NCBI GenBank assembly: GCA_031260865.1
Contig: JAISKQ010000198.1
Coordinates: 1-23,039, forward strand
DNA from: Prevotella sp.
GTDB lineage: Bacteria > Bacteroidota > Bacteroidia > Bacteroidales > Dysgonomonadaceae
DNA length: 23,039 nucleotides
Direction of reading: 5' to 3'
Below the pieces are notes generated by a model. The model saw only the letters and a program-made list of their open reading frames with translations. It searched no databases and was not told the DNA's origin. A program made the position numbers and the translations under genes. Below, piece after piece: positions 315-22,055 of the stretch. Position 1 is the stretch's first letter. Each line of letters starts with the position of its first letter.

Positions 315-1802
315 CTACAAAGTCACTCCTGTTTTAAAAATAGCAATCTCTTTAAAACCGGATTCTTCATGTTTTAGATGTTTACGGTTACATACATCTA
401 CGGTAAAGTTAATAAAATCGTCTAATACTGTTTCCATGCTTTTCCCCTCGAGTAGAGCGCCGGCGTTGAAGTCTATCCAGTTCTTTTTGAAGTTATACAA
501 CTTGGAGTTGGTGGAAATCTTCATCGTAGGGACAAACGAGCCGAAAGGCGTTCCCCTGCCTGTCGTGAATAATACAATCTGGCAACCGGACATAGCCAAA
601 GATGAAGCGGCAACGAGGTCGTTACCCGGCGCGTTCAGCAGATTCAGCCCATGTTTGGTAACAGGCTGTGTGTAGTCTAATACTGCCACAACTTCCGAAT
701 TACCGCCTTTTTGTGTGCATCCCAGCGATTTATCTTCAAGGGTGGTTATTCCCCCCGCCTTATTTCCCGGAGAAGGATTCTCATAGATTGGCTGGTCAAA
801 TTTACGGAAATAATGTTTGAAGTTATTGATAAGCAGTACCGTATCGTTAAATACCTTTTCCGTTTCGGCGCGGTTCATCAAGATGGTTTCGGCACCGAAC
901 ATTTCGGGTACTTCCGTCAATATGCTTGTCCCGCCCTGTGCTATCAGCCAATCGGAGAACTGCCCGACAAGCGGATTAGCTGTGATGCCCGAAAATCCGT
1001 CACTGCCGCCGCATTTTAATCCCACTTTCAGTTTGGATAGAGGAAGCGGTTCGCGTTTGTCATTTCGCATGTTTTCCACAAGTTCTTTCATCATCAGAAA
1101 GCCTGTTTCCACTTCATCTTCCACTTCATGCGCGATAAGGAATTTCACCCGTTTTTCGTCCCATTCGCCCATTACTTTTTTAAAGTCTGATTGCTGATTG
1201 TTTTCACACCCCAGGCTAAGGACTAACACACCTCCCGCGTTTGGATGTTTGACCAACGCCGCCAACGCTTTTTGTGTATTTACATGATCATCGCCAAGTT
1301 GAGAGCATCCGTAGTTGTGCGTATAAACCCTTATATCATCAATGTGGGATACATCAAGTTCTGTTTTTATACGGTTGACTATTGCTTGCGCTTGCCCGTT
1401 GACACAGCCGACAGTAGGAACAATCCACAATTCGTTGCGGATTCCCATTTCACCGTTGTAGCGAAGGTAGCCGTTTATTTTCAGATCGCTTTTGGCAATA
1501 TCCAATTTCGAATGAACCGGTATATAGGCGTATTTAAGGTCATCGTGCAGATTCGTTTTTACATTATGCGTATGCACGTGTTCGCCGATATGTATATTCA
1601 TGGTGGCATGACCGATGGGATAACCATATTTGATTATATCCTCGTTCAGCTTTATCTCCTTAACCGCGAACTTATGCCCCGTAGGTATCTGATTGCCGAT
1701 AGTCACGGAAACGCCGTCGATAGTGAGTATATCTCCTTCATTAAGGTCTGTTATAGCCACACATACATTATCGGTAGGCGCTATTTTCAGATATTTGTCC
1801 AT
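315..1802 (-). CDS. uxaA: Altronate dehydratase (UxaA)
   Basis: Cytoplasmic enzyme that dehydrates D-altronate to 2-keto-3-deoxy-D-gluconate, the third step of galacturonate catabolism. The 495-residue protein is full length for the family. An N-terminal SAF-like domain spans about residues 10-85 (GYPIGHA at 60-66, GEHVHTHN at 73-80). The large dehydratase domain follows, with the family's Cys-containing motifs GCVNG (C133), YGCSQLGDDH (C166), LGCENN (C199) and KCGGSDGFSGITANP (C264). These Cys residues are plausible iron ligands. It is the last gene of a four-gene minus-strand operon and starts only 11 bases after the HIT gene stop. The join with uxaB upstream supports altronate over the related galactarate substrate. 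No defects are seen. Confidence 0.95.
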   Translation of the reverse strand: MDKYLKIAPTDNVCVAITDLNEGDILTIDGVSVTIGNQIPTGHKFAVKEIKLNEDIIKYGYPIGHATMNIHIGEHVHTHNVKTNLHDDLKYAYIPVHSKLDIAKSDLKINGYLRYNGEMGIRNELWIVPTVGCVNGQAQAIVNRIKTELDVSHIDDIRVYTHNYGCSQLGDDHVNTQKALAALVKHPNAGGVLVLSLGCENNQQSDFKKVMGEWDEKRVKFLIAHEVEDEVETGFLMMKELVENMRNDKREPLPLSKLKVGLKCGGSDGFSGITANPLVGQFSDWLIAQGGTSILTEVPEMFGAETILMNRAETEKVFNDTVLLINNFKHYFRKFDQPIYENPSPGNKAGGITTLEDKSLGCTQKGGNSEVVAVLDYTQPVTKHGLNLLNAPGNDLVAASSLAMSGCQIVLFTTGRGTPFGSFVPTMKISTNSKLYNFKKNWIDFNAGALLEGKSMETVLDDFINFTVDVCNRKHLKHEESGFKEIAIFKTGVTL

Positions 1803-1813
1803 TTCGATTTTTT

Positions 1814-2239
1814 CTATTTTAATTTGTCTTTTATCGCCACAACCAATTTCGTATATTCTTCGTCAGACAAATATGTTGACATAGGATTCATCGCGAATGT
1901 AGAACCAAAATCAGGACCATCTATATACTTAGGAGCCAGATGTATGTGCAGGTGAGGCAATTTATCGGAATATGCTCCGTAATTAATTTTTACAGGAGCA
2001 AATAATTCTTTTAATACTCGGGCTACTTTATTAACATCTTCCATGTAGGCGAGTAAATCGGCAGCTTCTAATTCGTACAGCTCTGTCGCGTGATCTTTAT
2101 AGGCAACTATACATCTTCCCCTATAAGTCTGTTCTTTGAAAAGGAATACCGTGGAAACATTCAATTTACATATTTCTATCATCAGATCTTGTTGTGTCTG
2201 ATTCTTGTTGCAATAAAGGCAATCGTTGTTTATTGACAT
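1814..2239 (-). CDS. HIT-family nucleotide-binding protein
   Basis: A 141-residue cytoplasmic protein of the histidine-triad superfamily, whose members hydrolyse or transfer nucleotidyl groups (AMP-lysine or Ap4A-type hydrolases, nucleotidyltransferases). The signature is clear: PHLHIHLAP with H96, H98 and H100; one of these would form the nucleotidyl-enzyme intermediate. An N-terminal CLYC pair (C7, C10) resembles the metal-binding or structural Cys pair of some HIT proteins. It sits between uxaB (22-base gap) and uxaA (11-base gap) and is surely co-transcribed with them. Nothing in the known galacturonate route needs a nucleotidyl step, so its job there is unknown. It could be a housekeeping nucleotide hydrolase or act on a sugar-acid nucleotide or acyl-adenylate. 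Confidence 0.85.
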   Translation of the reverse strand: MSINNDCLYCNKNQTQQDLMIEICKLNVSTVFLFKEQTYRGRCIVAYKDHATELYELEAADLLAYMEDVNKVARVLKELFAPVKINYGAYSDKLPHLHIHLAPKYIDGPDFGSTFAMNPMSTYLSDEEYTKLVVAIKDKLK

Positions 2240-2261: not shown

Positions 2262-3704
2262 TTAGCTTATTATTTCTTTTAAGGCATTCAATATACCCTT
2301 ATCAAGGATGGATTCAATGTCTTTAGATACTTCGTCTATAAAATAAGGTACTTCCGAAAAGTTTTCTTTCCACAGCTCCCTGTTGTTCACAACATCGGCG
2401 ACCCAGCCGTTGATATTTTCCCGATTGTACGTTTTCTGTATAAAATCAATAAATTCGGGCGTGTCATTTGGCGTGAAATTTGTCGCGGCGGATTGTCCGG
2501 TATAGAGTACAAGCAGGGCGGCAAAAGAGAATATTGTCAGATGAGCGTTTTTACCTAACTTTTTACAGTTGTCATAAACGGTAGGATAGTCTCGCGTTTC
2601 CCATTTAGAAATAGAGTTCAGCGAAATATCTTTCAGATAGTGTTTCAGGTACGGGTTGTAGAAGCGTTCCAGTATCTTAGCCGCGAAAATATTCAACTCA
2701 TTTGGATCTTCGTCGATACACGGTAATACTTCTTCAGCCACCATACGGTTTATATATTTTTCAATCTCAGGCGTATTGAACGCGTCCATTACCGTTTCGC
2801 AGCCTAATTGCAAAGCCACAGGCACCATCGCCGTATGCGAGCCGTTCAGTACGCGGACTTTCTTGGCTCGGAAAGCTTTTATATCATCCATGAATAATAC
2901 ATTCAATCCGGCTTTATCCAACGGAAACTTTTCCTTGATTATATCATCCCCGCCAATAGCCCATACATGGAAATATTCGCCCTTAACCACCAGGTTGTCA
3001 TCAAATTCTATTTCTTGCTTTATTTCATTGATGTTTTCGCGTGGAAATCCCGGAACAATGCGGTCAACCAATGTGTCGTAGAAATGGCAGGCTGTGTTTA
3101 TCCAATTAATAAAGCCTTCTTCCAGTTGATTCTGTGTCGCGTGCTTCAATACATATTCGCGAAGAGTAGAACCATTATCTTCAATTAATTCACAGCAGAT
3201 GATAAGAAGGCCTTTATTTTGATCCCCATTAAATTTTTTATAACGTTTATAGAGTAAAGCCGTCATCTTAGCAGGGAATGATTTGGGCGGTTCCGCGTTC
3301 AGGTCATCCCCTTCTTCGTAACGGATTCCCGCTTCCGTGGTATTGGATATTATCATTTCCAGCTCATCGCTAAGGAAGAGTTTTTCATATTCGGCGTATT
3401 GGCTGTATGGGTTCAATATATCCATCAAGCTTTTTACCAAAGCCACTTCTTTCACGGGCTTTTTATCTTTTATTCCTTCCAGATAGACGTGGTACATACA
3501 ATCTTGAGCTTTGAAAATGGCAGCTATTTCCTTCCCTTGCGCAATAGGCTGTACGGCAATAACTCCGTGATTCATCACACCGGCGTTGTTTGCTTTGTCT
3601 ATCATCCAGTCCACAAAGGCGCGGAGGAAGTTCCCTTCTCCAAATTGAAGTATCTTTATCGGTAAATTTTTCTTTTCTACGGTTGTCTTGTTCAGTGGGT
3701 TCAT
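2262..3704 (-). CDS. uxaB: Tagaturonate reductase (UxaB)
   Basis: NADH-dependent reduction of D-tagaturonate to D-altronate in the cytoplasm. The 480 residues match the polyol-specific long-chain dehydrogenase (mannitol dehydrogenase) family. The dinucleotide-binding motif ILQFGEGNFLRAF lies at about residues 18-30. The C-terminal catalytic domain has KVRVLNGSHTAMVPV, with K282, N287 and H290 as probable active-site residues. Fructuronate reductase (UxuB) is the closest alternative. The neighbouring uxaA, with uxaC across the locus, favours the tagaturonate branch. It is the second gene of the minus-strand operon, 16 bases after the DUF4861 gene. No defect is seen. Confidence 0.92.
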   Translation of the reverse strand: MNPLNKTTVEKKNLPIKILQFGEGNFLRAFVDWMIDKANNAGVMNHGVIAVQPIAQGKEIAAIFKAQDCMYHVYLEGIKDKKPVKEVALVKSLMDILNPYSQYAEYEKLFLSDELEMIISNTTEAGIRYEEGDDLNAEPPKSFPAKMTALLYKRYKKFNGDQNKGLLIICCELIEDNGSTLREYVLKHATQNQLEEGFINWINTACHFYDTLVDRIVPGFPRENINEIKQEIEFDDNLVVKGEYFHVWAIGGDDIIKEKFPLDKAGLNVLFMDDIKAFRAKKVRVLNGSHTAMVPVALQLGCETVMDAFNTPEIEKYINRMVAEEVLPCIDEDPNELNIFAAKILERFYNPYLKHYLKDISLNSISKWETRDYPTVYDNCKKLGKNAHLTIFSFAALLVLYTGQSAATNFTPNDTPEFIDFIQKTYNRENINGWVADVVNNRELWKENFSEVPYFIDEVSKDIESILDKGILNALKEIIS

Positions 3705-3720
3705 GATATATTTATTTAAG

Positions 3721-4932
3721 TTATAAGTTACGAGTTATTAACGGATTATTAAGTTTGTTTAAAACTTCGTTTATGCAGCGTATTAAATCCTCTTTTGTTT
3801 TCACAGGATCTTTATCCAGTTCCCATGTCGGCATAAAGTAATATTCTATATATCCGTTCCGGGGAGTGAAGATCATGATGTGGTTGAGCTTGTCTTCTGT
3901 AATCTCTTTTATCTGGGCAGTGGGCGCGAACACAACGAGTCCCTGCATATCGTCGTTCATGCTTTGTTGTCCGAATGTCGCTATATATGACCATTTGCTG
4001 TCCTTTTCATTGCTGATGATCAATTCAGCCTTTTCGCTCTTTATAATTCCGGTTGCTATATTATCTATGTCAACCAATAATTCCATGTGCGACGCAAGGC
4101 TACCCGCGTCAATCGAAATTAATGACGTCAGGTCGCGTTTTGTGTCGTTAGCGTCCCAGCCGTAATATATTGTCTTCACTTGTGAACGTATCTTTCCATC
4201 GGCAGGAATATAGCACACCATGCTGTCTTTTTTCTCTACCCTTACAGCCTTTTCACCGTCCCACACCGCGATAGAACCTAATCCCAGAGCTTTTCCAACT
4301 ATCAGGTTGTCCATTCCCCAATCAGCCATTTTATGATAGCTGTCGAATCCGTCAACCCCCACGGCAGGCAACACTATATCCGATGTTTTCTTTCCAAACA
4401 CATCAATGGCGTTGCGGTTATCCAGATAGAAACGAAAAGCGGTTTTGTCGCTTTCCCATCCCGGTCCTTCATATTTAATGTAATAAGAATGGTCGTGGAA
4501 AGTACCCGGCAGGGAGATATAATTTGGTTTTACCCATGAATACCCGCCTGTATATTTCTGTCCTTCAAACTGTCCACCTATTTTATGCGATAGTTCGGCG
4601 TAAGTCCGTTTGGGGTAATTGACGGCTGTTCCTTTTTGCAATTTTATAAATAGTTCCTCGTTGCCCTGTATCTTTTCAATAGGGATTATAGCGAGCTGTT
4701 TACCCTTTATATCGGTGACAACTTCGACCGGAACGTCCAAATCATTTACTTTGGCTATATAACTACCGAAGGATAAGTTTAATTCTTCTGTCGGTATTTC
4801 TAATGTATAGTCCCGGATAGTCCGGGCGGAATTATTTTTCACGGATATGGTCTGAGCCTGCAAACTAACCTGTATCAGTAGGATGGCACAGAAAATAAAC
4901 AAATATTTGCGCGTTGAAAAAATATTATTCAT
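3721..4932 (-). CDS. Secreted DUF4861-type protein
   Basis: A 403-residue exported protein. Residues 1-26 are a signal peptide (basic NIFSTRKY, then a hydrophobic stretch, cleavage likely at QA/Q near 26-27), with no lipobox, so a periplasmic location is expected. The rest looks beta-rich and resembles the DUF4861 family seen in pectin loci. Conserved-looking patches include FHDHSYY (H146, H148), EGPGWESD (155-162), RFYLDNRNAID (167-177) and GVDGFDSYH (192-200). The polar and aromatic clusters suggest a carbohydrate-active or sugar-binding site, but no biochemical role can be read from the sequence. It is the first gene of the uxaB-HIT-uxaA operon, an unusual pairing of a secreted protein with cytoplasmic catabolic enzymes. 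The family assignment is from memory of its sequence features. Confidence 0.7.
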   Translation of the reverse strand: MNNIFSTRKYLFIFCAILLIQVSLQAQTISVKNNSARTIRDYTLEIPTEELNLSFGSYIAKVNDLDVPVEVVTDIKGKQLAIIPIEKIQGNEELFIKLQKGTAVNYPKRTYAELSHKIGGQFEGQKYTGGYSWVKPNYISLPGTFHDHSYYIKYEGPGWESDKTAFRFYLDNRNAIDVFGKKTSDIVLPAVGVDGFDSYHKMADWGMDNLIVGKALGLGSIAVWDGEKAVRVEKKDSMVCYIPADGKIRSQVKTIYYGWDANDTKRDLTSLISIDAGSLASHMELLVDIDNIATGIIKSEKAELIISNEKDSKWSYIATFGQQSMNDDMQGLVVFAPTAQIKEITEDKLNHIMIFTPRNGYIEYYFMPTWELDKDPVKTKEDLIRCINEVLNKLNNPLITRNL

Positions 4933-4969: not shown

Positions 4970-4984
4970 AGGTGTTCGACACCT
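4970..4984 (-). promoter_or_regulatory. Palindrome at the predicted 5' end of the DUF4861-uxa transcript
   Basis: The 15-base sequence is aggtgt-tcg-acacct, two perfect 6-base arms around three bases. It lies 5 bases beyond the -7 element at 4990-4997, so it would begin at about +1 of the minus-strand mRNA. It could be a repressor operator, or a 5'-end hairpin protecting the transcript. Confidence 0.45.
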
Positions 4985-4989
4985 GTTGG

Positions 4990-4997
4990 CAAATGTA
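4990..4997 (-). promoter_or_regulatory. -7 element of the DUF4861-uxaB-HIT-uxaA operon
   Basis: On the minus strand this reads TACATTTG, a full match to the Bacteroidetes -7 consensus TAnnTTTG. Transcription would start near 4983, giving a leader of about 50 bases before the start codon at 4932. I see no -33 TTTG at the usual 19-21 base spacing. In its place lies the CCCCC-ended motif at 5020-5035, which fits an activator-dependent promoter. Confidence 0.6.
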
Positions 4998-5019: not shown

Positions 5020-5035
5020 GGGGGTGAATTTGACT
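5020..5035 (-). promoter_or_regulatory. Candidate HTCS binding site upstream of the DUF4861-uxa operon
   Basis: On the minus strand the 16 bases are AGTCAAATTCACCCCC. They match 13 of 16 positions of the site upstream of susC at 9567-9582. The site ends 22 bases before the -7 element, so it would occupy about -37 to -52, a normal place for an activator that contacts RNA polymerase. Assignment to the HTCS is inferred from co-occurrence within the same locus. Confidence 0.55.
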
Positions 5036-5036
5036 A

Positions 5037-5052
5037 AAACAATTTCACCCCT
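5037..5052 (+). promoter_or_regulatory. Inverted partner copy of the candidate HTCS motif
   Basis: The plus strand reads AAACAATTTCACCCCT, agreeing with the minus-strand copy at 5020-5035 in 12 of 16 positions. Together they form an inverted repeat whose outer arms ggggtgaa (5021-5028) and ttcacccc (5044-5051) are perfect. The same repeat lies 20 bases past the HTCS stop codon, so in RNA it could also fold as a hairpin at the end of the HTCS transcript. No T-run follows it on that strand. Confidence 0.45.
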
Positions 5053-5071
5053 TATATTTTTCAAAACAAGG

Positions 5072-8000
5072 TTATGATTCCCTGACCTTGTTTTTATACT
5101 CGCTTGGCGTCATGCTAAAGATATTCTTAAAACATTGGGTGAAATATTTTGTATCGGATATACCAACCATGTATGAAACTTCCTTTATCGTATATTGTTG
5201 AGTTCCTATCAATTTGGCGGCGTGTTTTATCTTGACGTCCCTTATAAATTCAATAGGGGAGAATCCGGTAAGGCTTTTCAGTTTCTTAAAGAACACGGTT
5301 CGACTCATCGCCATAGCAGCGGCAAGATCATCGACAAGGAAATTGTTGTCATCGATATTGTTTTCCACCTCTTCCTTAATCTTCTTGATGAATAATTCAT
5401 CCTGAGGAGTTATCTTCAATTCCGGTTCTACATCAGTATTCTTTACCGATTCTATCGCTTTGGATTCAACGGTCGAATGGGCAAAGCTGTATGTTTCATA
5501 TAAGCGTTTCCGTTGTCGGATTATATTATCTATCCTTGCTTTCAGGTATTTTACGCTAAATGGCTTTGTAATATAATCATCGGCGCCGTATTCCAAACTA
5601 TCTAATTTACTTTCCATATCTGTTTTTGCCGTCAGCAGAATGAAAGGTATATGGCTGGTATTCGTATTGGTTCTTATTCTTTGCAACAGTTCCACTCCAT
5701 CCATTTCCGGCATCATAATATCGCTTACTATAAAGTCCGGTATAGCCTTGACCGCTATTCCGTATCCCTGTTTACCGTTTTCCGCGTCCAATACATTATA
5801 ATAAGGCTCTAAGATTGTCACGATGAATCGCCTCAAGTCCGAATCGTCTTCTACAACCAGAATCGTTTCTTGTTGATTGGCTTTTTCTTCTTTATCCGGT
5901 TTTGAGATATTGGGATTCTCCAACTTATCGGCTGTTTCGGGTTTCGTTTTGTTTGCTTCCTCTTTGGCTGCATCAGCATATACAAACACAACATTCTCGT
6001 CATCCTTGAAGTGATCGATACCCATCGGGAATAATATAATAAATGTAGAGCCTTCGTTTACTTCACTTTCCACTATTATTTTCGCATGGTGCTTGTCCGC
6101 CACTTCTTTCACTATCGACAGTCCGATACCTGTGCTGGGTTTACTCTTATCCTTATTGAAGGAAGCAAAGCGGGTAAAGAGCTTGCTCAGTATTTCTTTA
6201 TTCATCCCCCTGCCTTCATCTTTTACTTCAATAGCGACAGCCTGGTCTTTTATGTTTCTTTTTACATTTACTTCTATTGTCTTTTCCACAGAAGTATATT
6301 TAAAAGCATTCGACAGAAGATTAAATACTAATTTTTCCACACTATCCCTGTCTATCCATATTTTTTCGCCGTTCGTATTATCAAAGAACTTTAAGTTTAT
6401 ATTTTGATATTCAGCTGTCTTTGAAAAATTATTACAAATATCGGATACATAGTCTCCTATTGGCGTTTCTTGTATATTCAGTTTTTGTTTTTGTATTTTC
6501 CTGAAATCAAGTATTTGATTTACCATCCGTTGCATTCTATTTGCGTTTTTCAATACTAATTGAAGCTGGGATTTAATATCTTCGGAGGTTTGTTTGTTTT
6601 CGATGATGTTCTCCACCGGAGACACGATCATGGTCAATGGAGTACGGATTTCATGGGAAATATCCGTAAAAAAGCGAGTCTTCATTTCGGTTTGCTCATG
6701 CTCCAGCTTCACCCGATACCTCAAGCGGTAGAAGATGAAAAGGGTACGCAGGATAATATATAAAATGGCAATAATGAGGATGGAATATAATAAATATGCC
6801 CAACCTGTCTGCCAGAAAGAAGGGGTGATCTCAATGCTCAAAGTATGCTCGTTTTCCATCCATATCCCATCGCTATTGGTCGATTTCACTCGGAAAATAT
6901 ATTTACCCGGTGATAAATTGGTGTAGTTGGCTATCCGTTGCTTTTTAGTAATAATCCAGTCTTCATCAAATCCTTCCAGCTTATAGGCATACGTTATTCG
7001 TTTAGGTTCAATATAATCGAGGGCGACGAACTCAATATTAATGAAGTTTTGTTTATAATTCAACTTTATGGATTTTAAGTCGTCAATATTTTCTTTCAAG
7101 GGTGAATTTCCGCCGATAGGGACGTCTTTATTCGCTATTTGGAATTTCGTCAGGGCAAGGTAAGGTTTGAAAGTGTCTTTATTATTCCTTTTTATGTTAT
7201 CGGGATCAATAGACAAGATACCCTTTGAATACCCGAAATAAACAGTACCCGATTTGGTTGTACATCGCGCTCCTTCCGAGAAATTCTGACCGCTGATCAA
7301 CCTGTTTATTTCGCTGTATGTTTCAAATGATTTTATTTCAGGGTCAAATTTAGTGATATTACCCTCCGAGGCAATCCACAACTTTCCTTTATCATCTTCC
7401 ACAATGGTAAGTATTACATCCATCGGTAAACCGTCCTTTATGGTAAAAGAAGTGAATTTGGTGGGAAAACCCGCTCCATCCACGGCTTCAATCTTGTTGA
7501 TACCGCCGCCGAAGGTAGCTATATATGTTTCGCCTTTCTTTGTGGTACATATATCGTACACATCATTTTCGCTCAGGCTCTCATTATCTTCAGGCACGCG
7601 TGTGTAAAACTTGTAATCAATCTCGTTTACGGAAGTAAAATCGGAAGAGAACATAATCAAGCCAAGAGTAGTTCCCACACAGATGTTGTTGTATTTATCC
7701 GAAAGCATAGTCCTGATTTGCGAGCCATATTGCGCCGGATAGTTTTTCAGATTATTACGGTGATTAATAAACCGTTCCTGTTCCTCATCCAGCAGGTTAA
7801 GACCTCCGCCATAAGTTCCTACCCAGATGCGGTTTTTGTTGTCTTCCAGTATGGTGTAAACGCTGTTGCTGCTCAAGCTATAAAGATTATCGGGTGAATA
7901 TTTGTATTGCTTTATCAGATAAGCGTTGCCCGACGGGGTGAGTTTGTAAACCCCTTCGCCTTTTGTTCCCAGCCAGATATTTTTCTTACTGTCTTCGATG

Positions 8001-9511
8001 ATGCAATAGGTTATACCTTCCAGCGGTTTGCCGGATTCGATATGTCCGTTGCCGCACATATATCCTTTTTGGTTCAGTGATTTATCATAGACAAATACTT
8101 TTCCGCCTTTGGTCGAAACCCATAGCTGTTGGTTGCTGTCTTCAAAAATACCGCGTATATCATTGTTGATTGTGGAATGGATATTCGTATCCACCACAAT
8201 GGATTTGTAAACATCATCACTGAAAATAACCTTTTCCAATCCATTCGAACGCGTGCTCATCCACAAATTGCCCTGTCTGTCCGAAAAGGCGGTATGCATC
8301 ATGTTCGAAAACCGCCAGTCGGGTGAAGACGGTTCGTTATAGAACGGAACCGGTATATCTTTTTCGGCGTCGTACCAAGCGAATCCGCCGCCGCGCAGAT
8401 GTACCCAGAGTCGGTTGTCTCTATCTTCAAAGATGAAAAAGTTGGATGGGAAAACATTTGAAACGGTACTTTCTGTTTTTAGTTCAAAGTGCTTAAACGA
8501 TTTTGTTTGCGGGTTAAATTTTGCCACGCCGGCGTAATCCATCTCGAACCAGATATTCCCCGCCTTATCCTTGTAACAGGAAAGGATGCGGTTAACGGGC
8601 ATGTTCGGTAAGTTTGAAGTATCATATTTCTTTAACGCCTTGAATGTCTTATTATAGATATAAAAACCATCATTTCGTGTCGCTATTAATATCAGATTAC
8701 TATCTATATTATTGATATATATGATTTCTGATTTAGAATCTGTTTGCAGCAATTCGGTATTTTTTTTCTTTTTATCATATATCCATATCCTGCCTTTACT
8801 CGAACCAAACCATATATTATTCTCCAGTTCCATTACCGCGTGAAAATCCTGGGTAGGGTTATCCTCAACATAATTTTTTTCGGTAAAGAAGCTGTTTATT
8901 TTACCGTCGGTTGAAATCAAATATAATCCATTGTTGGTTAACAGCCATGAGTTTAGTTCTTGATCTTCATATACGGCATAAACAGCGTTCGCGTTAATCC
9001 GGTTATTCTCCCTGTTATAAATTTCGAGATTGAAAGTAGAATCGGTTACACATACACAGCCCATATTATCCGACAAAAGCCACACTTTACCGGACGCCGC
9101 GGTCACAATCTTTGAAGCGATGAATGTGAAATTTTCATATCCTTTCACAGATCGTATTCCCATGAATTTTTCCGGACGGGGGTCAAATCGGTGTGGTTCT
9201 CTGTCGTAAGGTAATGTCCATATATTACCGTATTTATCTTCACAGATAAAGTCTATCCGGTTGCTTCGCATGTGATATTTGTCTCCCTGTTGAATTTTAT
9301 AGGTATAGAAGTTGTACCCGTCGAAGCGACACAGCCCGTTCCATGTCGAAAACCACATGAATCCTTTCTTATCTTGCACAATATTCATAATGGTATGCTG
9401 CGGAAGCCCGTTTTCGGATCCGTAATGTTCAAAAAAGCATTTCTGCTGACAAAACGCGGGGGGGATAATGTGTGCAAGTATTATAATAAGAACAAATAAT
9501 TTCAATTTCAT
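5072..9511 (-). CDS. Hybrid two-component system regulator (HTCS)
   Basis: A 1479-residue inner-membrane sensor and transcription factor in one chain, which senses pectic oligosaccharides in the periplasm (by family) and activates the locus. Domains in order: signal peptide or N-terminal hydrophobic segment (1-21); two seven-bladed-propeller-like sets of Reg_prop repeats with many NIWFG/LWVGT-type strands (about 28-770); Y_Y_Y domain (about 805-895); membrane helix (902-928); HisKA with SHEIRTPL and phospho-acceptor H953; HATPase with NLLSNAFKYT (1065-1074), DEGRGM and GIGLSIV; receiver domain (about 1217-1330) with phospho-acceptor D1264 and K1316; AraC-type helix-turn-helix (about 1375-1476). 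All catalytic residues are present. It lies divergent from susC and behind its own promoter. Confidence 0.95.
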   Translation of the reverse strand: MKLKLFVLIIILAHIIPPAFCQQKCFFEHYGSENGLPQHTIMNIVQDKKGFMWFSTWNGLCRFDGYNFYTYKIQQGDKYHMRSNRIDFICEDKYGNIWTLPYDREPHRFDPRPEKFMGIRSVKGYENFTFIASKIVTAASGKVWLLSDNMGCVCVTDSTFNLEIYNRENNRINANAVYAVYEDQELNSWLLTNNGLYLISTDGKINSFFTEKNYVEDNPTQDFHAVMELENNIWFGSSKGRIWIYDKKKKNTELLQTDSKSEIIYINNIDSNLILIATRNDGFYIYNKTFKALKKYDTSNLPNMPVNRILSCYKDKAGNIWFEMDYAGVAKFNPQTKSFKHFELKTESTVSNVFPSNFFIFEDRDNRLWVHLRGGGFAWYDAEKDIPVPFYNEPSSPDWRFSNMMHTAFSDRQGNLWMSTRSNGLEKVIFSDDVYKSIVVDTNIHSTINNDIRGIFEDSNQQLWVSTKGGKVFVYDKSLNQKGYMCGNGHIESGKPLEGITYCIIEDSKKNIWLGTKGEGVYKLTPSGNAYLIKQYKYSPDNLYSLSSNSVYTILEDNKNRIWVGTYGGGLNLLDEEQERFINHRNNLKNYPAQYGSQIRTMLSDKYNNICVGTTLGLIMFSSDFTSVNEIDYKFYTRVPEDNESLSENDVYDICTTKKGETYIATFGGGINKIEAVDGAGFPTKFTSFTIKDGLPMDVILTIVEDDKGKLWIASEGNITKFDPEIKSFETYSEINRLISGQNFSEGARCTTKSGTVYFGYSKGILSIDPDNIKRNNKDTFKPYLALTKFQIANKDVPIGGNSPLKENIDDLKSIKLNYKQNFINIEFVALDYIEPKRITYAYKLEGFDEDWIITKKQRIANYTNLSPGKYIFRVKSTNSDGIWMENEHTLSIEITPSFWQTGWAYLLYSILIIAILYIILRTLFIFYRLRYRVKLEHEQTEMKTRFFTDISHEIRTPLTMIVSPVENIIENKQTSEDIKSQLQLVLKNANRMQRMVNQILDFRKIQKQKLNIQETPIGDYVSDICNNFSKTAEYQNINLKFFDNTNGEKIWIDRDSVEKLVFNLLSNAFKYTSVEKTIEVNVKRNIKDQAVAIEVKDEGRGMNKEILSKLFTRFASFNKDKSKPSTGIGLSIVKEVADKHHAKIIVESEVNEGSTFIILFPMGIDHFKDDENVVFVYADAAKEEANKTKPETADKLENPNISKPDKEEKANQQETILVVEDDSDLRRFIVTILEPYYNVLDAENGKQGYGIAVKAIPDFIVSDIMMPEMDGVELLQRIRTNTNTSHIPFILLTAKTDMESKLDSLEYGADDYITKPFSVKYLKARIDNIIRQRKRLYETYSFAHSTVESKAIESVKNTDVEPELKITPQDELFIKKIKEEVENNIDDNNFLVDDLAAAMAMSRTVFFKKLKSLTGFSPIEFIRDVKIKHAAKLIGTQQYTIKEVSYMVGISDTKYFTQCFKNIFSMTPSEYKNKVRES

Positions 9512-9529
9512 CGCAAATTAGGTTTAGTA

Positions 9530-9537
9530 CAAAAGTA
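9530..9537 (-). promoter_or_regulatory. -7 element of the HTCS gene
   Basis: The minus strand reads TACTTTTG, a full match to the Bacteroidetes -7 consensus. Transcription would start about 6-8 bases on, near 9523, only about 12 bases before the start codon at 9511. The message would thus have a very short leader. No good -33 element is visible. Confidence 0.5.
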
Positions 9538-9566
9538 ATCAGTTTTAAAGAAAATAATACAGGTAA

Positions 9567-9582
9567 AGTCAATTTGTCCCCC
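9567..9582 (+). promoter_or_regulatory. Candidate HTCS binding site upstream of susC
   Basis: The 16 bases are AGTCAATTTGTCCCCC, shared in 13 of 16 positions with the minus-strand site at 5020-5035 ahead of the DUF4861-uxa operon. It is the only C-rich block in an otherwise AT-rich region and points toward susC. Binding by the adjacent HTCS is inferred. Confidence 0.55.
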
Positions 9583-9764
9583 TCTAAAAAATATTTTAAC
9601 ACCCATTATTCCGAAAAAACATACATACATTGCAGTCGAATTAGAAAAACCATGAAAAATGAAAAAGAATTTAGTCTGTTATTTTTATTCTTTAAATAAG
9701 GAAGGAAAATACAAATTCGCAAAGAAACAAACGCTTAAATATTTATTATTTTAAATCTACAACC

Positions 9765-12700
9765 ATGCAAAAGACAATCAAAAAATTTTTGACACTGATT
9801 TGTATCTCGTTGTTTTTATTATGTGGGCAAAATGTATATGCTCAACAAAAAGAAATAAAAGGTACAGTAACTGACACACAAGGAGAGCCCTTGATTGGTG
9901 TTACTATCGCGGTAAAGGGTACAAACAAAGCGACCATGACCGACGTGGACGGCGCTTATATCCTATCGGTAGGCAATGAAGCCAAAACGTTAGTTGCTAC
10001 TTTCGTAGGGATGAAGTCGAGCGAAAAAAACATAACGGGGAGTGTTATGAATTTCGTCATGGAAGACCTCAGTTCCGAATTGGAAGAGGTTGTCGTGATA
10101 GGATACGGCACAGTAAAGAGAAAAGACCTTACAGGCGCTGTTTCCTCAATCAAAGGAGATGCTATTCAGGCGATTCCGGTGTCTAATGTAACGGAAGCCA
10201 TTACCGGTAAGCTGGCGGGGGTACAAATAACCACTACCGAAGGTTCTCCGGATGCCGAAATGAAAATACGTGTACGTGGGGGCGGTTCCATTACAGGCGA
10301 TAATACGCCGTTGTTTATAGTTGACGGATTTCCCGTGCAATCTATCAGTGACATAGCGCCATCCGACATAGAGTCGATCGATGTATTGAAAGATGCTTCT
10401 TCGACCGCCATTTATGGTTCGCGAGGTGCGAACGGTGTGGTTTTGGTTACTACAAAATCAGGTAAATCGGGTAAAATAAACGTGGCTTACAATAACTATT
10501 ACAGTTGGAAGAAAATAGCGAAAACATTAGATGTCCTTTCGCCAAAAGATTACGCGACATGGCAATATGAATTGGCGGGCTTAATAAAAAGCAGCGATAT
10601 GAGTTCATATACCGACTTTTTTGGAGCATATCAGGATATTGATTTATATGACAATATTCCGTATAATGATTGGCAAGATCTTACTTTCGGTCGTATAGGT
10701 CATACATTCAATCAAAGCCTTAGTATAAGCGGGGGCAGTGAAAAAATGAGTTTCGCTTTCAACTATTCACACACAAACGACAAAGCTATCATGCAGGGAT
10801 CGAACTTCAAACGGGATAATCTCAGTCTGAAATTAAATACGACTCCTGCTAAAAACGTCACTGTCGATTTCTCCGTCCGTTATGCCGACACAGATATTAA
10901 CGGCGGAGGATCGAATGACGCTAAAAGTACATTAGACACGGACAAACGCTTGGGTTACTCTGTAATCTACACACCGATACCTTTGGCGAACTTAACCTCG
11001 GATACAGGTAGTAGTGATGATTTGGGAAATCTTTTTAACCCTTTGGTCGCTATTTCGGACAACGCGCGTAAACAAACACGTAAAACGCTGAATTTAGCGG
11101 GAAGTTTCGGCTGGGAAATTTTTGATAATTTCCGTTTTAAGACAGAAATCGGGTTGGACGATTATAGGAACAGCGATAACAGGTTCTGGGGATTAACCAC
11201 TTATTATGCCAAAAACGACGGTTCGGGCAATCCTGTTACCCGATTGGTAAATATAGACCGTAACACACTCCGTAATACCAATACAATAAATTATAATTTT
11301 AAGAAATTGATAGGAAAAAACCATCATCTCAATATACTGGCAGGTCAAGAATATATTGGTACGAAAATAAAAACATTGACGGTTGAGCATCATAATTTCC
11401 CTAAAGAATTTACAGCGGAACAAGCTTGGAATTTATCATCGCAAGGTGATAATATAACAAAAGCGGATGATTTTTATAATCCTGACGATAAACTGCTATC
11501 TTTCTTTGGCAGGGCAAACTATGACTGGCAGAGTAAGTATATACTAAACTTTACTTTCCGCGCCGATGGTTCTTCCAAGTTCGGGAAAGAACACAGATGG
11601 GGATATTTCCCTTCTGCGGCCGCGGCTTGGCGCGTTTCGTCCGAATCGTTCATGGCTGGCACCAAATCATGGCTGGAGGATATGAAGTTGCGCTTTAGTT
11701 ACGGTACGGCAGGTAACAATAATATACCTTCGGGAGTAATGATTCAAACATTCTCGGCAGTCTCCTCCCAATGGATAAATGGTTTTAAAAATTACTGGGC
11801 GCCGACAAAAGATGATGATAGCAATGTCGTTATGGCAAATCCTGATTTGAAATGGGAGACTACAATTACCCGCAACATAGGTCTTGACTTTTCCTTATTG
11901 GGTGGAAAGGTGAACGGAACTATCGACGCGTATCTCAATACGACTAAAGACCTGCTTATACAGTTCCCTACCGCGGGTACCGGCTATACAGTACAATACC
12001 GTAATATGGGCGAAAACCGCAATAAAGGTATTGAAGCGACAGTCAATTGGATAGCCCTTGATAAGAAGGATTACGGCTTGTCGGTAAGCGCTAATATAGG
12101 TTTCAATAAGAACACGATCAAGTCGCTTGGCATAATGGATGACTTCGGCTGGATTTCAAGATGGGCGTCTTCCGAAATCAATGAAGATTTTTGGATCGCT
12201 GTCGGCGGATCTGTGGGAAAGATGTATGGATACCGTTCCGACGGCAGGTACGAAGTAAGCGACTTTGAAGAATATGATGGAAAAACATGGAAACTGAAAG
12301 ACGGCGTAACCAATTCGTCTTCGGCGGTAGGCACACTTCGTCCGGGTTCTATGAAATTGAAAGATTTGAACGGCGACAATAATGTGACCAGCGAAGATTG
12401 TGAAATCATAGGAGACGCTAATCCTTTGCATACCGGTGGCTTTACTATCAGCGGACGTTTATATGGATTCGACCTTTCGGCGAATTTCAACTGGAGTTAC
12501 GGAAATGATGTATATAATGCTAACAAAATAGAATACACACAAACAAGCAAATATCAATACCGGAATATGTCTTCGATTATGGAAAGCGGAAAACGTTGGA
12601 CAAATCTTCGTCCCGATGGAACTATTTCCAATGATGCCGCCGAGCTGAACGCGATGAACGCGAATACCACCATGTGGTCTCCTTACACTCAGAAAAGGAT

Positions 12701-12971
12701 ATTCAGCGACTGGGCGGTGGAAGACGGTTCTTTCTTACGCCTAAACACCCTGACTTTGGGATATACATTGCCTAAAGCGATCTTGTTTAAAGCAGGAATA
12801 CAAAATGTCCGTTTCTATGTGACAGGTTACAACCTGCTTTGTATAACAGGTTATTCCGGTTTCGACCCTGAAGTTTCCACTATTCGCAAAACAAATCTGA
12901 CTCCGGGCGTGGATTATTCCGCCTATCCTAAGAGTCGTCAATTTGTTATAGGACTTAACTTGAATTTCTAA
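9765..12971 (+). CDS. SusC/RagA-like TonB-dependent outer-membrane transporter
   Basis: Outer-membrane beta-barrel of 1068 residues that imports oligosaccharides, here probably pectic galacturonides, using energy passed on by TonB. A signal peptide covers residues 1-26 (cleavage VYA/QQ). A carboxypeptidase-D regulatory-like domain follows at about 30-100 (EIKGTVTDTQGEPLIGVTI). A TonB-box-like segment EEVVVIGYG lies at 107-115 and the plug domain at about 118-235 (PLFIVDGFPV, DIESIDVLKDASSTAIYGSRGANGVVLVTTK). The barrel runs to the C-terminal aromatic residue (LNLNF), as needed for barrel assembly. The susD-like gene starts 23 bases after its stop. Substrate is inferred from the enzymes downstream. 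No truncation is seen. Confidence 0.96.
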   Translation: MQKTIKKFLTLICISLFLLCGQNVYAQQKEIKGTVTDTQGEPLIGVTIAVKGTNKATMTDVDGAYILSVGNEAKTLVATFVGMKSSEKNITGSVMNFVMEDLSSELEEVVVIGYGTVKRKDLTGAVSSIKGDAIQAIPVSNVTEAITGKLAGVQITTTEGSPDAEMKIRVRGGGSITGDNTPLFIVDGFPVQSISDIAPSDIESIDVLKDASSTAIYGSRGANGVVLVTTKSGKSGKINVAYNNYYSWKKIAKTLDVLSPKDYATWQYELAGLIKSSDMSSYTDFFGAYQDIDLYDNIPYNDWQDLTFGRIGHTFNQSLSISGGSEKMSFAFNYSHTNDKAIMQGSNFKRDNLSLKLNTTPAKNVTVDFSVRYADTDINGGGSNDAKSTLDTDKRLGYSVIYTPIPLANLTSDTGSSDDLGNLFNPLVAISDNARKQTRKTLNLAGSFGWEIFDNFRFKTEIGLDDYRNSDNRFWGLTTYYAKNDGSGNPVTRLVNIDRNTLRNTNTINYNFKKLIGKNHHLNILAGQEYIGTKIKTLTVEHHNFPKEFTAEQAWNLSSQGDNITKADDFYNPDDKLLSFFGRANYDWQSKYILNFTFRADGSSKFGKEHRWGYFPSAAAAWRVSSESFMAGTKSWLEDMKLRFSYGTAGNNNIPSGVMIQTFSAVSSQWINGFKNYWAPTKDDDSNVVMANPDLKWETTITRNIGLDFSLLGGKVNGTIDAYLNTTKDLLIQFPTAGTGYTVQYRNMGENRNKGIEATVNWIALDKKDYGLSVSANIGFNKNTIKSLGIMDDFGWISRWASSEINEDFWIAVGGSVGKMYGYRSDGRYEVSDFEEYDGKTWKLKDGVTNSSSAVGTLRPGSMKLKDLNGDNNVTSEDCEIIGDANPLHTGGFTISGRLYGFDLSANFNWSYGNDVYNANKIEYTQTSKYQYRNMSSIMESGKRWTNLRPDGTISNDAAELNAMNANTTMWSPYTQKRIFSDWAVEDGSFLRLNTLTLGYTLPKAILFKAGIQNVRFYVTGYNLLCITGYSGFDPEVSTIRKTNLTPGVDYSAYPKSRQFVIGLNLNF

Positions 12972-12994
12972 CATAAATATTAAAGAATACAATA

Positions 12995-14782
12995 ATGAAA
13001 ATAAAAAAATTCACATATAAATCTATTTTGCTCTTAGCGCTCGCGGGTATAATCACGTCCTGCGACCTGGATGCTCCGACTAAATCTGCCACCGACGAAT
13101 CGATTGTGTATTCGAACTATGTTATCGCCGAAGCGGCAGTGGTGGGTATTTGCAATTCATTTGCGTCAGTTAACTCTTACAGGGGACGTTTCCTTCCGTA
13201 TTACGGGATTAATTCGGATGTGGAATGGATTAATAATATGCCGGAAAACGGGCTAAATATAGCGGATGATGGTAAATATGAACTTGCAGGATATGCGGCG
13301 CGTCCAAGCAATGGGCAAATGAATACTCCCGATAATGCATGGTCTGCTTTTTACGAAGGAATAGAACGTGCCAACTTGTGTATTCGCGGATTGCGCGCGT
13401 ATGGAAATATAGAGCAGGATAAGAATATGGCTCAATTGCTGGGAGAAGCCTTGACCTTGAGATCCGTCATTTACCTGGATTTAGTAAAAGGATGGGGAGA
13501 TGTGCCCGCGCGTTTTGAACCGATCGGTTCCGAAACGTTGTATATACCGAGATCAGACAGAGATATTATATATAAACAATTGCTCGCCGACTTGTTGGAA
13601 GCCGAATCATTGGTCGCGTGGCCTAACGAGACACAAGTGACAAGCAGCGTAGAACGTATAAACAAGTCTTTCGTCAAAGGACTCAGGGCACGCGTGGCAT
13701 TGTACGCCGGTGGTTACAGCCAACGTAAAGACGGCGTACGTAGAAGTACCGATCCTGAATTGGCTCCGGAAAAGATGTATGCGATAGCCAAAGAAGAATG
13801 CTTGGACGTTATCAATCGTAACGCCAATAAACTGGGTACATTTGAAGAAAATTTCAAAAAACTTTGTCAGGATAATATCGCGGCAGGAGGCGAGTCGCTA
13901 TGGGAAATACCATTTAATGACGAACCTGCGCGAGGACGTGTTGTCTTTACACTTGGTGTGTTACACCAATCTGTGGATCAATATACGGGACAAAATAAAG
14001 GCGGTGTAAACGGTCCGCTTCCAAACCTTTTCTACGACTACGATGTGCAAGATGTGCGCCGCGATATTACTTGTGTTCCTTACGAATGGTCGAAAGAGAA
14101 CCCAAGTAAACAACAACTTCGCAGTCTTAAATCATGGTGTTTCGGTAAATTGCGTTACGAGTGGATGAAACGTTATGTGACTTCGACAAATGATGATGGC
14201 GTGAACTGGCAATATATGCGTCTTGCGGATGTTTATATGATGGCTGCCGAAGCTATCAACGAACTGGAAGGACCGGGTAATGCCGCGCAATATCTGAAAC
14301 CTATTTTGGATCGCGCTCTTCCTGCGGCTAAGGTGAACGCGTATATGACAACAGCGACGGCAGGTAAGGATGCGTTTTTCAAAGCCATTGTGGATCAACG
14401 CGCGCTTGAATTTGCCGGGGAAAGCCTGAGAAAAGCCGACTTGATACGTTGGAATATCTTGAAAACAAAATTAGATGAGGCAAAAGCTAAGATGGTTCAG
14501 CTGGCAAACCGTCAGGGCGCTTATGCCGATCTTCCGGAAAGCCTTTACCATAAAATTGCCGCCGATGGCGAGACATTGGTTATTTACGGACTAAATCACG
14601 GTGAAACCGATGCTGTGGGAGCTACGCTTAGCGGTTATGAAAAAACATCGTGGATATCCGCGACTAAACTTCCCGAACCTATGATCAACTCTCTTTACCA
14701 GAAAGACCCGAACCAAAACCAGTTCTGGCCTATTTGGCAATACTTTGTCTCCACTAGTAACGGAACATTGACAAATGATTAA
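12995..14782 (+). CDS. SusD/RagB-like surface glycan-binding lipoprotein
   Basis: A 595-residue lid protein that pairs with the SusC barrel on the cell surface and binds the oligosaccharide. The lipoprotein signal is clear: a hydrophobic stretch followed by TSC with lipidated C23, and acidic residues at 24 and 26. Family hallmarks are WSAFYEGIERANLCI (116-130), RSVIYLDLVKGWGDVP (156-171), MRLADVYMMAAEA (408-420) and DQRALEFAGESLRKADLIRW (467-486). The protein is helical with TPR-like repeats in known members. It lies between susC (23-base gap) and the beta-helix lipoprotein gene (25-base gap), so the three are one transcript. Confidence 0.95.
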   Translation: MKIKKFTYKSILLLALAGIITSCDLDAPTKSATDESIVYSNYVIAEAAVVGICNSFASVNSYRGRFLPYYGINSDVEWINNMPENGLNIADDGKYELAGYAARPSNGQMNTPDNAWSAFYEGIERANLCIRGLRAYGNIEQDKNMAQLLGEALTLRSVIYLDLVKGWGDVPARFEPIGSETLYIPRSDRDIIYKQLLADLLEAESLVAWPNETQVTSSVERINKSFVKGLRARVALYAGGYSQRKDGVRRSTDPELAPEKMYAIAKEECLDVINRNANKLGTFEENFKKLCQDNIAAGGESLWEIPFNDEPARGRVVFTLGVLHQSVDQYTGQNKGGVNGPLPNLFYDYDVQDVRRDITCVPYEWSKENPSKQQLRSLKSWCFGKLRYEWMKRYVTSTNDDGVNWQYMRLADVYMMAAEAINELEGPGNAAQYLKPILDRALPAAKVNAYMTTATAGKDAFFKAIVDQRALEFAGESLRKADLIRWNILKTKLDEAKAKMVQLANRQGAYADLPESLYHKIAADGETLVIYGLNHGETDAVGATLSGYEKTSWISATKLPEPMINSLYQKDPNQNQFWPIWQYFVSTSNGTLTND

Positions 14783-21981: not shown

Positions 21982-22001
21982 ATATGTGTGCGCACACATA
22001 T
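21982..22001. promoter_or_regulatory. Operator 1 of uxaC (20-bp perfect palindrome)
   Basis: A perfect palindrome centred between 21991 and 21992, with core TGTGTGCGCACACA and flanking ATA/TAT. It lies directly upstream of, and touches, the -33 TTG. An even palindrome with a central CG is the form bound by LacI-family repressors. A KDG- or hexuronate-sensing regulator is the natural guess, but none is encoded in the window. Confidence 0.75.
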
Positions 22002-22041: not shown

Positions 22042-22055
22042 TGTGTGCGCACACA
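22042..22055. promoter_or_regulatory. Operator 2 of uxaC (14-bp palindrome)
   Basis: Perfect palindrome TGTGTGCGCACACA, identical to the core of operator 1, centred 57 bases downstream of it. It falls at about +5 to +18, where a bound repressor would block initiation or early elongation. With operator 1 it brackets the promoter. Confidence 0.75.

Follow-up and report, generated by a model that had tools for sequence, protein, structure and literature searches.

A half-site shared by the importer and galacturonate-catabolism promoters of a Prevotella pectin locus: candidate operators of the intervening hybrid two-component system

The pectin locus and its two promoters

The window analysed here is a 23,039-nucleotide stretch of Prevotella sp. 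DNA (family Dysgonomonadaceae; GenBank assembly GCA_031260865.1, contig JAISKQ010000198.1, positions 1 to 23,039 of the forward strand; our contig C142) from a draft genome of 2.54 Mb that is 74% complete, and our subject is a short sequence motif in the two promoters on either side of its gene for a hybrid two-component system (HTCS). One flank of this gene is a divergent importer run, susC-susD-DUF5123-GH28-GH88-pectate-lyase-like-pectinesterase, and the other is a co-directional catabolic run, DUF4861-uxaB-HIT-uxaA, while uxaC lies at the far right end of the window. The HTCS is the sole regulator that Pfam recognizes among the 13 window proteins scanned. It has the composition by which the class is defined, with propeller sensor, histidine kinase, receiver and AraC-type helix-turn-helix (HTH) within a single protein, and its gene adjoins susC/susD, the divergent pair at 9765-14782. 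The genes and promoter elements discussed below are as follows.

315..1802, minus strand: UxaA-like altronate dehydratase (Pfam)
1814..2239, minus strand: HIT-domain protein (Pfam)
2262..3704, minus strand: UxaB-like oxidoreductase with Mannitol_dh domains (Pfam), named uxaB by context
3721..4932, minus strand: DUF4861 protein, first gene of the catabolic operon (Pfam)
4990..4997, minus strand: -7 element TACATTTG of the DUF4861-uxaB-HIT-uxaA promoter (sequence, alignment)
5021..5035, minus strand: promoter-proximal half-site AGTCAAATTCACCCC of the putative catabolic operator (alignment, matrix)
5037..5051, plus strand: distal half-site AAACAATTTCACCCC of the putative catabolic operator, inverted relative to the proximal one (alignment, matrix)
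5072..9511, minus strand: HTCS, with Reg_prop propeller, Y_Y_Y, HisKA, HATPase_c, Response_reg and HTH_18/HTH_AraC (residues 1396-1474) domains (Pfam)
9567..9581, plus strand: distal half-site AGTCAATTTGTCCCC of the putative susC operator (sequence, genus comparison, matrix)
9589..9603, plus strand: proximal half-site AAATATTTTAACACC of the putative susC operator (22-bp tandem repeat, matrix)
9626..9634, plus strand: -7-like element TACATTGCA of the susC promoter (genus comparison)
9765..12971, plus strand: SusC-like TonB-dependent receptor, first gene of the importer operon (Pfam)
12995..14782, plus strand: SusD-like protein (Pfam)

A first-pass annotation of this DNA had singled out two 16-mers, one at 9567-9582 facing susC and one at 5020-5035 on the minus strand facing DUF4861, and both are present there, differing at 3 of 16 positions (13 of 16 identical). 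They are the only two matches to the pattern AGTCAANTTNNCCCCC in the whole draft genome. As evidence, however, their likeness was overstated: with 3 mismatches allowed, the mean was 0.31 or 0.19 matches per shuffled window in two shuffle runs, and a pair to be expected 0.2-0.3 times per shuffled window proves little without relatives. The proposed 16-bp motif is real and shared, but its actual unit is a half-site of about 15 bp, AGTCAA....CCCC. Likewise, a copy does exist at each operon, yet each is one half of a putative two-part operator, whose second catabolic arm (5037-5051) had been missed. At susC the half-sites form a 22-bp tandem repeat; at the catabolic promoter they stand back to back, their centres 16 bp apart.

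It follows from this layout that the two 16-mers first noticed lie at unequal distances from their promoters, one being the distal susC half (59 bp from TACATTGCA) and the other the promoter-proximal catabolic half. By position, the latter corresponds to the proximal half at susC, which lies 37 bp from its own -7. The catabolic copy does lie just upstream of a -7 element, as had been described, with 38 bp between the start of AGTC and TACATTTG at 4990-4997 on the minus strand, and the reported lack of a -33 element is borne out by reading the sequence, TTTG not being present at that position. Just downstream of this -7 we also observe a perfect hairpin, AGGTGTCGAACACCT at 4970-4984, which is flagged as terminator-like; by eye, partial copies occur only in two genus-mates (G018 and G012), and it is possibly an operator or leader element.

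Conservation of the half-site across the family

The two promoters were compared across 101 family genomes, including genus-mates and members of other genera (g3, g5, g6, g9, g10, g11, g38). On the catabolic side, a strict pattern of half-site plus promoter matched once in each of 17 genomes, 16 times before DUF4861 and once before uxaC, against 2 matches for a reversed-pattern control; the match before uxaC is in G006, where the site precedes an HTCS-linked uxaC-uxaB-uxaA operon rather than DUF4861. Conservation upstream of orthologous operons had been set beforehand as one of two tests of the motif, and the site was found in 18 of the 28 DUF4861-bearing family genomes (16 strict and 2 relaxed; G004, whose contig begins inside the DUF4861 gene, was left out of the yes-or-no count). 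No site was found before DUF4861 in eight of the 28, and in six of these eight (G026, G028, G032, G061, G062, G117) DUF4861 starts directly behind the HTCS gene, with which it is probably co-transcribed. In G117 (L227:3652-12501), for example, DUF4861-uxaB-HIT-uxaA begins right after the HTCS stop codon, and sensor and catabolic genes look co-transcribed there, an alternative wiring of the same link.

Nineteen catabolic promoters, the 17 strict ones and two relaxed ones (G001, G068), were aligned. In all 19, a distance of 36-38 bp separates the start of the half-site from the -7 downstream of it (in G068, from a ATAAATTTG-like element). Sixteen of them also have an inverted arm with GGGG, beginning 16-18 bp before AGTC. 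The exceptions are G065, where the arm is degenerate, and G008 and G001, where the half-site is repeated in tandem at 21 bp, so that these two catabolic promoters show the HTCS-type tandem layout. The operon itself differs in g6, where G029 carries DUF4861-uxaC-PfkB kinase-SDR-KDPG aldolase; here the catabolic half-site is identical to the proximal susC half-site (AGTCAAAATATCCCCC), and both lie 37 bp from a -7.

The susC side is similarly constrained. AGTCAAnT...CCCC stands 59-60 bp upstream of TAnATTGCA in all ten genus genomes in which susC is divergent from the HTCS gene, and a strict pattern has 12 matches across the family, every one before a susC gene (control, 0): these ten promoters, a second susC unit in G065, and one in G066, where susC and the main HTCS lie on separate contigs. 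Outside the genus, the best repeat spacing is 22 bp in 18 of 18 HTCS-divergent promoters from 17 genomes, with 160 summed 13-mer matches at 22 bp versus at most 99 at every other spacing from 16 to 27. These 17 are drawn from 33 non-genus genomes with an HTCS orthologue; the near-duplicates G061 and G084 (of G026 and G033) were omitted, as were loci that were not fetched or whose promoter ran off the contig. A tandem repeat of this spacing, for example CAATTTGTCACC-N10-CAATTTATCACC in G079, occurs in the HTCS-divergent promoter of every genus examined (g1, g3, g5, g6, g9, g10, g38), and a tandem repeat was also found in that of g11 (G070) by pattern match.

The two promoters of the window are further linked by a matrix built from 20 distinct half-sites in 12 HTCS-divergent promoters of genera g3, g5, g9, g10 and g38, the training of which excluded genus-mates and catabolic promoters and the 12 anchors of which were picked by eye. 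Among 3,146 intergenic window positions, the catabolic distal arm ranks 1, the susC distal half 2, the susC proximal half 3 and the catabolic proximal half 6; among all 46,050 window positions the ranks are, in the same order, 2, 6, 10 and 52. A second matrix with g6 promoters added ranks them 1, 2, 22 and 3, and is partly circular in that the g6 promoters were found via the window's own AGTCAA motif; for the ranking we rely on the first matrix. When each of 12 catabolic regions was shuffled 300 times and scored with this second matrix, between 0 and 5 shuffles per region reached the real best score. In each of the ten inverted-type genus promoters other than G006, that matrix places its best plus-strand match at the proximal half and its best minus-strand match at the distal arm.

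We accept the motif as real because of this cross-genome comparison, rather than because of the 16-mer pair alone, and on the evidence of the alignments it is almost certainly regulatory as well. The chance that two C-rich 16-mers merely happen to be alike, which their expected frequency in shuffled windows would on its own allow, becomes negligible once position, spacing and sequence are seen to be conserved across 19 promoters on the catabolic side and 12 on the susC side, and the sites to be predicted from the promoters of other genera.

The candidate regulator and the sense of control

We propose, with a probability of about 0.78, that one regulator uses both sites as operators, and that this is most likely the intervening HTCS, which would activate the galacturonate branch as well as import. 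From the computed motif, geometry, conservation and genome-wide specificity we infer the HTCS as binder, activation as its effect and pectin fragments as inducer. The periplasmic sensor would meet such fragments, probably of homogalacturonan, and the phosphorylated receiver-AraC output would then bind two promoters, at the tandem repeat of susC (9567-9603) and at the back-to-back pair of DUF4861-uxaB-HIT-uxaA (5021-5051). Since the proximal half-site lies ~37 bp upstream of the -7 in both, with the -33 absent, the HTCS, once bound, would act as an activator and recruit polymerase, and pectin sensing would thereby directly induce the galacturonate-specific cytoplasmic steps along with import. 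A conserved S/CHIP-DK contact motif has been described in the HTCS receiver (PMC11253607).

Several points weigh against this proposal. The proximal catabolic half ranks, on its own, just 52 of 46,050 positions, and the count of 22-bp spacings was not blind, its anchors having been picked by eye. The published rule for HTCS motifs in Bacteroides thetaiotaomicron is a direct repeat averaging 21 bp (PMC3878776); the susC repeat, at 22 bp, fits the rule, whereas the window's catabolic pair is inverted, like those of 16 of the 19 promoters aligned, and we therefore describe it as a putative operator that combines HTCS half-sites in a variant arrangement. Two genomes, G008 and G001 (55% and 51% complete), keep the catabolic site while no HTCS orthologue was found in them. 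Some HTCS paralogues have similar repeats upstream of targets of their own (e.g. G117:C43), and the HTH segment SRTVFFKKLK, exact in 18 of 25 HTCS orthologues and in none of 10 more distant HTCSs, is exact in one of four closer paralogues too, so that a paralogue could bind these sites. Finally, ten of 25 genus genomes lack a uxaB orthologue, and neither the HTCS orthologue nor the strict site occurs in any of these ten (38-39% matches in G009 and G014 being scored as absent, and G015, whose uxaB runs off its contig, being omitted), while the 14 with a uxaB orthologue include ten with the HTCS and four without it (G001, G004, G008, G020; 51-82% complete); with HTCS and uxaB co-occurring in this way, presence and absence cannot separate the regulator from its target.

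Another regulator could control both operons jointly, be it a paralogue of the HTCS or a uronate regulator encoded elsewhere. LacI regulators are credited with the control of uronate catabolism in B. thetaiotaomicron (PMC3878776 Table 2), similar repeats stand beside HTCS paralogues and at further loci, and besides the two genomes without a detected HTCS orthologue there is G066, with its susC site on another contig and three HTCS relatives. We nevertheless think such a regulator unlikely: the 22-bp tandem repeat accompanies this particular HTCS in every genus examined, the LacI-type sites described below are unrelated palindromes, none of them within one mismatch at the uxaB promoter, and a LacI-linked second uxaB in G010 has no half-site. 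An inverted distal arm in 16 of 19 catabolic promoters could instead mean that the HTCS binds there and represses, or only tunes, transcription, and the HTCS BT2391 of B. thetaiotaomicron is reported as a repressor of its polysaccharide utilization locus (PMC11253607). The proximal half-site, however, lies upstream of the -7 rather than over it and at the same distance as in susC promoters, the -33 element is absent in the window as would be expected for an activator, and the G008 and G001 versions are tandem, all of which makes repression or mere tuning quite improbable.

A still smaller probability attaches to the reading that the catabolic element is an intrinsic terminator of the HTCS transcript, or a hairpin at which it is processed, and resembles the susC site only by coincidence. 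As RNA, the arms in the window do form a good fold (z -2.18) with 13 of 15 positions paired, the element starts 36 bp past the HTCS stop, its G068 version is a stable hairpin with a T-rich tail, and the terminator scan flags the separate hairpin at 4970-4984. The same scan, however, flagged nothing at 5020-5051, where the stem, T run and tie to the 3' end of the upstream gene that mark an intrinsic terminator were not found together. Across the 19 promoters the pairing is not conserved (13 of them reach no more than 10 of 15 even in the best register), whereas AGTCAAA....CCCC and its spacing of 36-38 bp are. We reject a terminator, as it is the catabolic promoter, rather than the HTCS 3' end, that the element accompanies: the HTCS stop is about 818 bp away in G012 and 586 bp away in G018, and in G008 and G001 the element is present with no HTCS alongside.

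Two further observations concern the HTCS itself. The G024 orthologue (L237:4823-7711) is a frame of 962 aa to which Pfam assigns propeller, receiver and HTH, but neither Y_Y_Y nor kinase domains, whether through true deletion or assembly fault, and this genome retains both operators. A search of the genome contigs with the HTCS protein returned, among the matches listed, 80 distant loci with best segments at most 38% identical, which were not used.

LacI-type sites and the uronate pathway

Apart from the HTCS site, the window holds a second kind of putative regulatory sequence, at uxaC.

21985..21998: upstream LacI-type palindrome TGTGTGCGCACACA at uxaC, apart from the HTCS site (sequence comparison)
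22042..22055: downstream LacI-type palindrome at uxaC, 57 bp from the first (sequence comparison)

Both are perfect copies of TGTGTGCGCACACA and bracket the TTG-N19-TATCTTTG promoter of uxaC. The pair recurs in all six genus genomes whose examined span includes uxaC (the window counted), one palindrome of G010 being substituted. Within one mismatch, TGTGTGCGCACACA occurs at three places in the draft genome, the two at uxaC and one, with one mismatch, before lacI-SDR-uxuA on contig C79; at the uxaB promoter no copy was found within that limit. A LacI reading of the catabolic element was set aside accordingly, the LacI-type sites being unrelated palindromes at uxaC and lacI-SDR-uxuA; the second uxaB of G010, which stands beside a LacI gene, is without the half-site.

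The palindromes look like a LacI uronate regulon. Since, within one mismatch, they occur in the draft genome only at uxaC and lacI-SDR-uxuA, the isomerase shared with the glucuronate branch, and that branch itself, appear to be LacI-controlled, and the galacturonate-only steps HTCS-controlled. We lean slightly towards a wider scheme, in which one HTCS would use two operator geometries, tandem for import and back to back for catabolism, and the hexuronate pathway would be split between a polymer sensor and a LacI sensor: galacturonate-only steps would be switched on ahead of their substrate by the periplasmic polymer sensor, while uxaC, under a LacI-type repressor shared with the glucuronate branch, would follow a cytoplasmic signal.

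The first-pass annotation had regarded HTCS-driven cytoplasmic catabolism as unusual, which goes too far. Most HTCS pathways of B. thetaiotaomicron do end in periplasmic monosaccharides and leave catabolism to cytoplasmic sensors, but the regulons of HTCS_Hep and HTCS_Fru, alone in that species, reach cytoplasmic kinases (PMC3878776). The regulon proposed here resembles these two, which govern an inner-membrane transporter and a sugar kinase (PMC3878776), and differs from them in adding an altronate branch with its own promoter and inverted operator. It also resembles HTCS_Rgu-1 (BT4111/BT4124), an AraC-type HTCS for pectin with adjacent susC/susD, a direct repeat of ~21 bp and pectin enzymes (PMC3878776); the Rgu pathways, unlike that of the window, end in periplasmic monosaccharides, and the window would add a cytoplasmic galacturonate operon via an inverted operator. 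In its targets it is comparable with UxaR, KdgR and UxuR, the LacI-family regulators that control uronate catabolism genes in Bacteroides (PMC3878776), although in the window just uxaC has LacI-type palindromes. Among the top-ranked open-licence PMC papers we noticed neither HTCS control of uxaA/uxaB nor an inverted HTCS operator. According to one study (PMC11784079), several uronate genes of Segatella copri rise on pectins, but not altronate dehydratase or a LacI-like gene close by.

If the proposal is correct, a polymer sensor is wired directly to galacturonate catabolism, and cells could ready the cytoplasmic pathway before the sugar arrives, tying that pathway to pectin alone. The orthologous promoters, some inverted and some tandem in layout, would then be a ready-made experiment on how DNA is read by AraC-type HTCS outputs, and the catabolic site is a concrete candidate operator that is cheap to test.

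Searches beyond the two promoters were also made. A looser catabolic pattern gave 25 matches in 22 of the 101 family genomes, of which 18 are known catabolic sites and the remaining seven are within the level of a reversed control (19 matches). Two of these seven, G018:C195 and G024:C70 (L276, L277), have an alike repeat-type site around GTCAAATGTCCACC between divergent frames, perhaps an operator of another regulator. In an evenly drawn order-wide set, 7 of 393 genomes matched, four of them known family members and the other three no more than the control (3 matches), and in a loose genus-wide search the only recurring sites were the two that flank the HTCS. A tandem-repeat pattern, which misses the window's own, more degenerate susC repeat, matched in 29 of 101 genomes (control, 7 matches), many of the matches being unrelated coding-like repeats. 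On contig C11 of G006 (L304:1501-1534) there is an extra tandem repeat with 22-bp spacing, CAAAATACCCCCCGTCTTAAAACAAAATACCCCC; the open frame downstream of it spans 475 aa or more and is a possible further member of the regulon.

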